From assembly GCF_000758325.1 (NCBI RefSeq), contig NZ_CP009459.1, positions 4,402,001 to 4,466,000 of the forward strand: a stretch of DNA of 64,000 bases, in the 5' to 3' direction. The notes beneath the pieces are model-generated. The model ran no database searches, had not been told where the DNA came from, and saw only the letters and a list, made by a program, of their open reading frames with translations. Below are positions 10,338 through 14,063 of this stretch, piece after piece. The translations under genes and the position numbers were made by a program. The stretch is from Cedecea neteri (GTDB lineage Bacteria; Pseudomonadota; Gammaproteobacteria; Enterobacterales; Enterobacteriaceae). How positions within the stretch are numbered: position 1 is the stretch's first letter; each line of letters begins with the position of its first letter.

Positions 10338-11353
10338 TAACTACGCCCCGCCGCTAACAGCTTGTCCAGCTCCCCACCGGTGGCAAAATGCGTTTTCATT
10401 ACTTCCGGCCAGCCGCCAAAGGCATCTTCCACGCGGAACAGCTCGGTCTGCGGGAATTTATCTTTCAGCTTGTCCATCACCTGCGGGTTATTCACGCGGT
10501 AGTAGTAATCGGTAATGATCGTCTGTGCCTGTGGGCTATAGAGATAGTTCAGGTAGGCTTTCGCCGCTTTTTCCGTGCCGTTGGCCTTCACGTTCTTATC
10601 CACCCAGGCAACCGGGAACTCGGCCAGAATGTTGACCTTCGGCACCACCACTTCATAACCGTCTTTAGCGTACTGGTTACGGATGTTATTCACTTCTGAT
10701 TCAAAAGAAATCAGCACATCGCCCAGCCCACGTTCGACAAAGGAGGTTGTCGCCCCGCGGCCACCGGTATCAAACACCTCAACGTTTTTCAGGAATTGCG
10801 TCATGAACTGCTCGGTTTTGGCTTTATCGCCGCCGTCAGCTTTGTCTGCCGCGCCCCAGGCCGCCAGATAGGTATAACGGGCGTTGCCGGAAGTTTTCGG
10901 GTTCGGGAAAATGAGCTTCACGTCCGGGCGTACCAAATCGCTCCAGTCGTGGATGTTCTTCGGGTTGCCCTTGCGCACCAGGAAAGCCATGGTGGAGTAG
11001 AAAGGCGAACTGTTGTTCCCCAGACGGCTCTGCCAGTCCGCCGGGATCAGGTTGCCTTTATCGTGCAGGATCTGCACATCGGTCACCTGGTTATAAGTTA
11101 CAACGTCAGCTTTTAAGCCCTGCAAAATGGCCAGCGCCTGTTTTGATGACCCGGCATGAGATTGTTTTATCGTCAGCTTGTCGCCGTTATTCTCCTGCGC
11201 CCACTGTTTTTCAAACGGCGGGTTCAGCGCGGCAAACAGCTCACGAGACACATCATAAGAGCTATTCAGCAGCTCTGTTGCATGGGCAGAGCCTGCCAGC
11301 AGCAAAGAGACAGCGAGCGCGTTCCATACTTTTTTAACTGACCTGATTGCCAT
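10337..11353 (-). CDS. cysP: Thiosulfate/sulfate periplasmic binding protein
   Basis: CysP binds thiosulfate (and sulfate) in the periplasm and delivers it to CysUW. A Sec signal peptide covers residues 1-25 with the cut after AHA. The rest is a type 2 periplasmic binding fold; the prokaryotic sulfate-binding signature region lies around [12 protein letters not shown] near residue 150. Length is 338 residues as in E. coli. It is the first gene of cysPUWA(M), whose expression in enterics depends on CysB and N-acetylserine. Confidence 0.95.
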
Positions 11354-11483
11354 GCTTCGCCCTTATAAATGTGATGAATGCCATAAATGTCATGACAGTC
11401 AGTGTATTTATAACGAGCGATAAAGCTGTAACGCTTTTATATACCGTTTGGCGATTTACAAGAAGAAAGGGATATAAGAAAGC
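11354..11483 (-). promoter_or_regulatory. cysP promoter region (CysB type expected)
   Basis: This AT-rich stretch between cysP and the yfeX terminator must hold the operon promoter. TTATAAATA and TATATAAAA runs are visible on the minus strand, but I could not assign -10, -35 or CysB sites with certainty. In E. coli ucpA and the mur genes lie beyond cysP; here yfeX follows directly. Confidence 0.35.
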
Positions 11484-11503
11484 GGCGTAGCAAACGCTAC
11501 GCC
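11484..11503 (-). terminator. yfeX terminator
   Basis: GGCGTAGC pairs with GCTACGCC around four bases just past the yfeX stop. The minus-strand tail is GCTTTCTT, so the T run is imperfect. Confidence 0.6.
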
Positions 11504-11511
11504 GGAGGGGA

Positions 11512-12411
11512 TTACAGGCTCAGTAATTTATCGAGCGACGGTGCGAAGTAGTAGCCGCCGGTTACCGGCTTAGTGAAGCGCAGCATACCGTCACGCTTGC
11601 CGTCAGCGTCACCAAACATGCTCAGCAGCTGCTGTTCAATGTTATGCAAACGCGCGCAATAGGCGATGAAATAGAGACCGTGCACGCCGCTGGCGGTGCC
11701 GTAAGGCAGGCTCTGACGCACAATTTTCAGCCCCTTACCGTCTTCTTTCAGATCGACACGGCTCAGGTGAGAAGTGGCCGGGCGCGCGTCGCCGTCAATT
11801 TCTTCGTTTTCCTGTTTGGTACGGCCGAAGATCATCTCCTGGTCGTGCACGCTCAGGCGGTTAAGCTGCTTGAGGTTGTGCTCCCAGCGCTGAACCAGCA
11901 CATAGCTGCCCCCGGCATCCACGCCTTCGTTGATCACCGCCACCTGACGACGATTCTCTTCGCCCTGCGGGTTTTCGGTCCCGTCTACGAAACCGCTGAG
12001 ATCGCGCTCTTCTACCCAGCGGAAACCGTGAATCTCTTCTTCAATTTTTAACGCATCGCCAAACGCGGCCAGCGCGGCCTGAGCTACGGAGAAGTTTACG
12101 TCATGGCGCAGCGAAAGAATGTGGATCATCACATCGTGCTGGGTTGCGGGCGCCAGGCCTTTGCCTAATGGCGTAAAGTTTTTCAGCTCTGCGGCACCTT
12201 CGCCTTTGCTGAGGTCGCGCCACAGATCGTGCCCGAAGCCAACGGTGGCGCCCAGCATCGCGTCAGGGAATTTTTCCTGGAAAGCGTTCAACGCTTCAAT
12301 AAAGGTTTTGCACCCTGCGCTAACCGCGCTGAAGTCGCCCTGCACTGAAGCTTCCAGCCAAACGGCGGCACGACAATGTTCCGGCAGAATGCCGCTTTGA
12401 ACCCGAGACAT
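11512..12411 (-). CDS. yfeX: Dye-decolorizing (DyP-type) heme peroxidase YfeX
   Basis: YfeX is a cytoplasmic heme peroxidase that acts on porphyrinogens and dyes; a deferrochelatase role has been debated. The DyP motif GxxDG appears as GFVDGTENP near residue 140, and the heme-ligand histidine region is [11 protein letters not shown] near residue 215. The start was set at the ATG preceded by GGAGGA, giving 299 residues as in E. coli; the frame continues 21 codons upstream, through the leader hairpins, without support. The gene stands alone between terminators. Its 5' leader holds two competing hairpins. Confidence 0.95.
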
Positions 12412-12422
12412 GATTCCTCCTG

Positions 12423-12474
12423 AAAAAATGCCACCCAGGGTGGCATCATAGTTACGTACCACCGGAGGTGGCAT
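12423..12474 (-). promoter_or_regulatory. Tandem alternative hairpins in the yfeX leader
   Basis: On the minus strand four segments follow each other: ATGCCACC (12474-12467), GGTGGTA (12463-12457), ATGCCACC (12446-12439) and GGTGGCAT (12435-12428), then six T residues ending 12 bases before the yfeX ATG. Segments 3 and 4 make an intrinsic terminator. Segments 2 and 3 can pair instead, as in an attenuator. The terminator could also simply end yfeY transcripts. Confidence 0.5.
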
Positions 12475-12539
12475 TTATCGGGCTATTTTAACCTGATTCA
12501 TTCACGCTGACTTGCGGCGGCGCAAACCCGGCGCAGATT

Positions 12540-13115
12540 TTATCGACGCCAGATAATTTTGTTAAGCGTCCATTTCTTCAACGTATCATCCGACGGCATC
12601 AAGCCTTCCGGCCCGTGCCATTCGCCCGTAAACAGATAGCTGATGTGCTGGCTGTTCGGCGCCTGACAGATAACAGCTTCCGCATCGTCGCCAGTGCCTT
12701 TTTCGCAAACCCCAAACGCTTTCTGATACAGATCGCTGAAAGGCGTGCCAATTTTCACGCCGCTGGCGGTTTTGATGTCATTATCCATCACATCTACGCG
12801 GCTCACGGTGCCTTTTTCGCCATTCACCACCAGCTTCACGTCTTTGTCTTTCATCGCCTCAAAGTAGCGCACGATGGTGCCGTTTTCGGTTTTCATGCCG
12901 CTGCGCAGGCGATAATTGTCATTCAATCCCTCGCTCACGGCCTTCTCATCCATCGCAGTGGCAGAGGTCAGTTTCCCCACACCCTGCTCGCTCACCTCAA
13001 CGGAAGAGCCAAACCAGTTCCACGGATAAGCCGCAGACCAGTTAACGGAAGACAGCGTGGAACATCCGCTCAGAACCAGCGGCAGGCCTAGCAGCATCAG
13101 GCGCAGAGATTTCAT
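12540..13115 (-). CDS. yfeY: Envelope-stress lipoprotein YfeY
   Basis: A predicted outer-membrane or periplasmic lipoprotein of the DUF1131 family, known in E. coli as a sigma-E regulated lipoprotein of unknown role. The signal peptide ends in the lipobox LSGC, with the lipidated cysteine at residue 18. Length is 191 residues, the family norm. A sigma-E-type promoter lies just upstream, which supports the assignment. It is followed by the yfeX leader hairpins. Confidence 0.9.
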   Translation of the reverse strand: MKSLRLMLLGLPLVLSGCSTLSSVNWSAAYPWNWFGSSVEVSEQGVGKLTSATAMDEKAVSEGLNDNYRLRSGMKTENGTIVRYFEAMKDKDVKLVVNGEKGTVSRVDVMDNDIKTASGVKIGTPFSDLYQKAFGVCEKGTGDDAEAVICQAPNSQHISYLFTGEWHGPEGLMPSDDTLKKWTLNKIIWRR

Positions 13116-13147
13116 TGATCATTCCTTTTCAAAAAATGGTAACGGCC

Positions 13148-13176
13148 TTTGGAGTACGAGGATGTCAAAAAGTGCC
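13148..13176 (-). promoter_or_regulatory. Sigma-E-type promoter for yfeY
   Basis: On the minus strand GGCACTT (13176-13170) and TCCAAA (13153-13148) are separated by 16 bases, close to the sigma-E consensus GGAACTT with TCAAA. Transcription would begin about 25 bases before the yfeY ATG. The element overlaps the end of yfeZ. Confidence 0.55.
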
Positions 13177-13617
13177 GCTTAACTCGTTTTTCAGGGCGAA
13201 GTAATCCCGCAGTCGGCGGTTAGCCAGCAACCACCAAAGCGCGAACAGATCGACAATCAGCAGAACAAGGGTGGTACCGGTCAGCGTTTCATCCCCGGCC
13301 AGCAGCGCCACTTGCCACGCCAGCAGCCCGACCTGAGCCACAATCAATATCCAGCGAAACGCCCGCCAGAACCGGGGCCAAAGGTGGCGACGCCCGCTGA
13401 GCAAAAAGGCCAGCGCAGCCGGAATACCGGGGATCAGCCCCAGCCAGAAGTTATCGCGATCGGGATAAAACAGGCCCAGCAGCGCATCGCCCTGCTGACG
13501 AGACGCCCCCGCCAGCACCAGCAAAACCCAGGTGCGGGCCTGTAACAACAACACCGCCCAGAACAGCAGCGGTGCTTTTAAGTTGCCCTGCGAATCATAA
13601 TCAGCAGGCAAATACAT
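13165..13617 (-). CDS. yfeZ: Inner-membrane protein YfeZ
   Basis: A 150-residue DUF2919 family membrane protein of unknown function. Four hydrophobic segments are visible at about residues 18-38, 57-74, 89-108 and 114-132. The length and position between yfeY and ypeA match E. coli. It lies 21 bases after ypeA on the same strand and is probably cotranscribed with it. Confidence 0.88.
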   Translation of the reverse strand: MYLPADYDSQGNLKAPLLFWAVLLLQARTWVLLVLAGASRQQGDALLGLFYPDRDNFWLGLIPGIPAALAFLLSGRRHLWPRFWRAFRWILIVAQVGLLAWQVALLAGDETLTGTTLVLLIVDLFALWWLLANRRLRDYFALKNELSGTF

Positions 13618-13637
13618 GGCATGAGCACATTTGAAAA

Positions 13638-14063
13638 TTAATATTCCTGATCTTCTATCAGCCGTTTGCCAAGCAAAATGGTGTCCTGATGCTCGTAATC
13701 GAGCTTTTCATAAAGGCCGATAACCAGATCGTTCTCTTCGCGCACCATGATGTGGATCTTCGGGCAGCCACGGGCAATCAGCTTCTTTTCCAGCCGGTTC
13801 AGTAAGGCGTTAGCAATGCCACGGCCCCGAAACTCCGGATGCACGCCCAGGTAATAGGCTGAACCCCGATGACCGTCATACCCGCCCATCAACGACCCGA
13901 CGATCTCACCGCCGACCTCTGCGACTAAAAACAGGTCCGCATCGTGATGCAGCTTACGTTCAATATCCATCTCCGGGTCATTCCATGGGCGCAGTAAATC
14001 GCAACGCTCCCAAAGGGTAATGACCTCTTCGAAATCTTCCTGGCGAAAAACGCGAATTTCCAT
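13638..14063 (-). CDS. ypeA: GNAT family acetyltransferase YpeA
   Basis: A 141-residue N-acetyltransferase of the GNAT superfamily; its natural substrate is not established. The acetyl-CoA loop is [16 protein letters not shown] near residues 75-90. The ATG at 14063 was chosen because AAGGTGG lies 8 bases before it and the length equals E. coli YpeA; a GTG four codons upstream lies inside that ribosome site. It is divergent from amiA. Confidence 0.92.

Follow-up and report, generated by a model that had tools for sequence, protein, structure and literature searches.

A conserved leader hairpin ahead of yfeX, doubled in Cedecea

The yfeX gene of Cedecea neteri is preceded by a genuine leader hairpin that is conserved in many enterobacteria, is doubled in Cedecea alone and looks ordinary in kind, with protection of the message or partial termination as its putative role. 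As judged by comparison of sequences, the hairpin covaries among relatives, has a -10-like box on one side and the ribosome site on the other, and exists in two copies in Cedecea. On balance we lean, if only by a little, towards regarding the arrangement as a duplicated 5'-terminal stem-loop of the yfeX mRNA, which from its predicted start site would probably protect the message. Positions below are those of the window, the whole 64,000-nucleotide stretch of C. neteri DNA that was analysed.

Results

Layout and folding of the yfeX leader

The open reading frames of the window give the minus-strand gene order ypeA, yfeZ, yfeY, yfeX, which is identical in K-12. Ahead of yfeX, ATGCCACC occurs twice with its complement after each copy (Table 1), at the positions given in the preliminary description and on the minus strand; the distance of 12 bases from the end of the T run to the yfeX start codon was likewise correct. 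That description had also supposed that the terminator would mask the region of the ribosome site, which does not hold, as the Shine-Dalgarno sequence comes 3' of the T run and the leader fold leaves it unpaired.

Table 1. Positions of the features at the yfeX leader in the window
Feature	Position	Strand	Remark
Segment 1, ATGCCACC	12474-12467	-	Followed by the loop TCC
Segment 2, GGTGGTAC	12463-12456	-	Followed by the spacer GTAACTATG
Segment 3, ATGCCACC	12446-12439	-	Followed by the loop CTG
Segment 4, GGTGGCAT	12435-12428	-	
Hairpin 1 (segments 1-2)	12456-12474	-	7 pairs in the window
Hairpin 2 (segments 3-4)	12428-12446	-	8 pairs
Six-T run at the end of hairpin 2	12423-12428	-	Terminator score +2.4 (d'Aubenton-Carafa type)
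yfeX Shine-Dalgarno sequence AGGAGG	12416-12421	-	GGAG invariant across the 53 aligned leaders
yfeX coding sequence, 299 aa	11512-12411	-	ATG from 12411; porphyrin peroxidase
yfeY, lipoprotein gene upstream of yfeX	12540-13115	-	
Predicted yfeX promoter, -10-like box TAAAAT	12485-12490	-	In relatives, same position relative to the hairpin
Palindrome TTGCG-CCGC-CGCAA, possible activator site	12512-12525	-	Presumably centred near -41

The transcribed strand from 12478 to 12412 folds at -29.5 kcal/mol (z-score -4.43), better than 200 of 200 dinucleotide shuffles; for the plus strand of the leader region the z-score is -3.07, with 2 of 200 shuffles equally good. Segments 1 and 4 are also complementary, a pairing that had been overlooked, and because of it the lowest-energy fold is one long hairpin in which 1-4 closes around 2-3. 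This nested form accounts for the minimum of -29.5 kcal/mol, the separate hairpins sum to -22.5 kcal/mol, and 2-3 alone gives -11.4 kcal/mol.

The exact pattern ATGCCACC-N3-GGTGGCAT has a single occurrence in the 4.66-Mb genome. When up to 2 mismatches are allowed, it is found at 5 places, including both yfeX leader hairpins, and a reversed-pattern control with the same tolerance finds 0 places in that genome. Rfam gave no match up to E = 1 within positions 11000-14000 of the window, which speaks against a known RNA family.

A single hairpin in relatives

In E. coli and many other enterobacteria the yfeX leader holds a single hairpin, usually of the form ATGCCACG-loop-CGTGGCAT, flanked by a -10-like box and the ribosome site, and the relatives outside Cedecea that bear this hairpin have one copy. 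Many lineages of the same family are without it, among the 98 distinct leaders, of 114, that were scored with the copies of the window's own locus excluded; from the 80 matching genomes, distant orthologs (G151, G104, G053, G099, G134 and G096) and low-scoring paralogs were excluded as well. Five leaders (L078, L079, L081, L084 and L114) have unrelated strong hairpins at the same position before yfeX, with the GCCAC stem absent.

For covariation we used an alignment, A1, of 53 leaders aligned from the -10 box: 52 from other lineages and the single-hairpin Cedecea leader L012. The box was chosen by the pattern TANNNT in 52 of the 53 (L033 has none), and by eye where two boxes fitted, as in L022 and L102. 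Rows were picked by eye for the hairpin or a relic of it, with borderline leaders such as L067 and L054 left out, so the covariation counts hold for that choice; the shuffles, moreover, ignore the relatedness of the leaders.

Folding with covariation across relatives, the check that the preliminary description had proposed, returned a conserved paired stem in these 53 leaders, strong by three of five measures and weak by two. In the 8-bp helix 86.1% of cells are paired, against 80.8% in shuffles. Double-changed cells number 26, against a shuffle mean of 9.0 and with 0 of 500 shuffles as high, and the covariation score is 0.207, against 0.116 for shuffles and at most 0.084 for versions of the helix slid along the alignment. 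Pairs with double changes come to 5, against 3.4 (30 of 500 shuffles as high, and 7 such pairs at a slide of +3), and further pair types to 13, against 10.5 (46 of 500 as high). The outermost pair of the stem forms in 17 of the 53 leaders and two core pairs hardly vary; RNAalifold recovers the inner 6 pairs.

Four leaders (L033, L038, L050 and L092) do not fit the stem pattern, which leaves 49 of the 53 measurable. Here the stem starts 9-15 nt past the -10-like box (10 nt in 20 of them), the loop has 3, 4 or 5 nt (6, 28 and 15 leaders, respectively) and the ribosome site follows the stem at a distance of 6-17 nt. The first 8 nt after the stem hold 3 to 7 T, with at least 5 T in 42 of the 49.

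The K-12 yfeX leader hairpin ranks third strongest among 100 K-12 genes scored alike. Its loop in E. coli contains a GGA, seen by eye, which we take to be CsrA-like. Leader variation within E. coli is small, 4,869 of 5,376 matching records having at least 99% identity. One E. coli record, NZ_CM132948.1, stands apart: no more than 72% of the query made from the K-12 yfeX leader is matched at its best place, and the query falls on two places, which suggests that the leader is interrupted near 1424281-1424383.

Two hairpins in Cedecea

Two hairpins are present in seven of the eight Cedecea genomes and one in the eighth (G003, C. neteri, with leader L012); outside these eight, an uncultured Cedecea sp. 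(L100, YfeX 82% identical) has a single, weaker hairpin. Conservation of segments 1-2, on which the preliminary description had made its reading depend, therefore extends to 7 of 8 Cedecea genomes and goes no further, there being no second copy elsewhere. The distance from the -10 box to hairpin 1 is 10 nt in all seven Cedecea leaders checked. Because the leaders of other genera have one hairpin, duplication is the simpler history: an ancestral single hairpin would have been doubled in Cedecea, although the single hairpin of L012 could also be a later loss.

Leader L014 (G005 and G007) shows paired A-to-T and T-to-A changes in hairpin 1, together with one C-U mismatch. Pairing there stands at 7/8 for 1-2, 6/8 for 2-3 and 7/8 for 1-4, and the minimum is two separate hairpins at -19.0 kcal/mol, with 2-3 alone at -2.0 kcal/mol. 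The hairpins of L013, from one Cedecea genome, are near reverse complements with their loops included and fold as one long hairpin at -43.2 kcal/mol, a point in favour of the long-hairpin form in that leader. The 2-3 pairing is strong in L013 (-23.0 kcal/mol) and in L010 (-11.6 kcal/mol).

The spacing between the hairpins grows from 9 to 129 nt in L088 (G006), where a repeat of about 120 nt separates them; hairpin 1 nonetheless keeps its 10-nt distance from the -10 box, and hairpin 2 remains next to the ribosome site. In the computed minimum, 1-4 and 2-3 still pair around the insert, which means that the energy model alone cannot choose between the forms. The repeat itself, at 1342-1463 of L088 (Enterobacteriaceae bacterium RIT693), has at least 45 matches in its own genome, the query place included (62 candidates, 40 scored), and 4 matches in the genome of the window.

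The hairpin as a probable 5'-terminal stem-loop

We propose that the promoter predicted in the yfeY-yfeX gap would start transcription near 12478. The yfeX RNA would then carry a stable hairpin a few bases from its 5' end, and after it a T-rich stretch and an accessible ribosome-binding site. The most likely role of such a hairpin would be to protect that end against pyrophosphate removal and RNase E without blocking the ribosome site. The two Cedecea copies could behave as independent hairpins or fold together into one long hairpin, and some transcripts may end at the copy beside the T run.

The constant distance from the -10 box to the hairpin and the open ribosome site fit a protecting stem-loop at the 5' end. 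According to a review (PMC3997798), bla mRNA gained stability from a 5' hairpin, and such a hairpin impedes the conversion of the 5' end by RppH; against protection, the same review describes rpsO and T7-made lacZ mRNAs as not stabilised by sequestering the 5' end. Two features of the leader also sit less easily with it: the frequent T-richness after the stem is not required by protection alone, and a second promoter-like match at 12565-12537 would put about 50 nt of RNA ahead of the hairpins, against a 5'-terminal position. Among the matches listed in the literature searches, judged by titles and the starts of abstracts, nothing concerned a yfeX leader hairpin, and neither a mapped start site nor a half-life for yfeX was found.

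Alternative readings

The main rival, and a serious one, is a partial intrinsic terminator, which would limit sigma-E-driven read-through from yfeY into yfeX and would also lower yfeX's own transcription. We regard this as less probable than the 5'-terminal stem-loop, although the two may hold together. The hairpin has a GC-rich stem and a T-rich tail, and a terminator score of the d'Aubenton-Carafa type (threshold 0) is above 0 in all four distinct Cedecea double leaders scored (2.4, 11.2, 7.2 and 12.5). Among the 49 single-hairpin leaders, 5 exceed that threshold and another 14 fall between -15 and 0. The remaining picture counts against termination: 44 of the 49 single-hairpin leaders are under the threshold, among them K-12 with -28.7, and of the five positives three (L030, L108 and L111) are near-identical. 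Leaders without the GCCAC stem lend termination some support, since in L078, L079 and L084 unrelated hairpins with T4-T5 occupy this position. Expression data point both ways: in Table 2 of PMC2731931, sigma-E overproduction in E. coli raised yfeY 3.3-fold with no significant change listed for yfeX, but that same table marks yfeX as sigma-E-regulated according to two earlier studies. The hairpin also lies downstream of the predicted yfeX promoter, where strong termination would come at the expense of yfeX itself.

The preliminary description had read the repeats as an attenuator or RNA switch in which pairing of 2 with 3 blocks a 3-4 terminator, which we consider improbable. The alternative pairing can form in the window when 1 and 4 are held open, it is the best fold of a 42-nt prefix there, and its strength in L010 and L013 is in keeping with such a role. 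However, pairing 2-3 frees 1 and 4 to pair beside the T run, as they do in the window minimum, and consequently there is no terminator-free ON state. Nor is the 2-3 pairing conserved, since it is weakened to 6/8 pairs in the L014 type (two of the seven two-hairpin Cedecea genomes), where 1-2 and 3-4 are kept and separate hairpins are the minimum, and other lineages have a single hairpin. The predicted start about 4 nt before hairpin 1 would put the hairpin so near the 5' end of the mRNA that no room would be left for a sensor or a leader peptide, and the lack of an Rfam match across 11000-14000 counts against a switch as well. What survives of the earlier claims is a real conserved structure ahead of yfeX, as the covariation of the 53 leaders indicates, and a 3-4 stem that is terminator-like by its score in the Cedecea doubles; the switch itself is unsupported.

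We give equally little credence to the idea that a repressor uses the inverted repeat as its DNA operator just past the start site. Its GCCAC...GTGGC core is conserved beside the -10 box, but the spacing of the half-sites differs among species and some changes are compensatory, and this variable distance between conserved half-stems points to RNA rather than to an operator of fixed spacing. Similarly improbable, in our estimate, is that the doubled hairpin of Cedecea is a regulated promoter-proximal terminator, in which two hairpins and one long hairpin would terminate with unequal strength and a heme-, iron- or protein-dependent signal would shift the balance between them for yfeX.

The first ATG in hairpin 1 opens a 320-aa reading frame joined to yfeX (11512-12474, minus strand). 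A leader peptide was considered and rejected: the frame of the hairpin ATG joins yfeX in the window, where the ATGs are 63 nt apart, but is lost in K-12, where they are 41 nt apart and the leader frame is consequently not kept.

Signals upstream of the leader

E. coli yfeY is annotated as RpoE-regulated. Ahead of yfeY in the window (13148-13176, minus strand) lies GGCACTT-N16-TCCAAA, present in L088 too, and this we take to resemble the sigma-E promoter consensus. Nearer to yfeX, 54 of 103 distinct yfeX leaders contain TTGCG-N6-CAA and the other 49 do not; in all 54 the motif starts 35-37 nt upstream of a -10-like box. In length and position it resembles an FNR-class activator site. The upstream palindrome is a candidate activator site that could explain anaerobic induction; in anaerobic Yersinia intermedia, yfeX was the sole up-regulated gene in the category of iron metabolism (PMC3792023).

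Discussion

The yfeX leader illustrates that doubling of a conserved leader hairpin can by itself produce a switch-like arrangement of repeats, and it directs studies of yfeX to the compact promoter and leader of the gene itself. Should either protection or partial termination be proven, yfeX would provide a useful natural series, with one hairpin, two hairpins or two hairpins split by a repeat, for the effects of 5' hairpins on mRNA life and read-through.

Among known systems, amino-acid attenuators and riboswitches share with the Cedecea leader repeated segments with more than one pairing option. The yfeX leader differs from them in having no recognised aptamer or leader peptide and no terminator-free state, and in a 2-3 pairing that is not kept in every two-hairpin relative. 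The likeness to intrinsic (Rho-independent) terminators, a GC-rich stem followed by a T-rich tail, is strongest in Cedecea; in contrast to such terminators, the yfeX hairpin scores below threshold in 44 of 49 single-hairpin relatives, and it sits just past the gene's own predicted promoter. The ompA and papA mRNAs, finally, have 5'-terminal stabilising stem-loops. With these the yfeX leader shares a stable hairpin, which by prediction would be only a few bases away from the 5' end, and an open ribosome site, whereas it departs from them in that its hairpin directly abuts a T-rich stretch and the ribosome site and, in Cedecea, is doubled.
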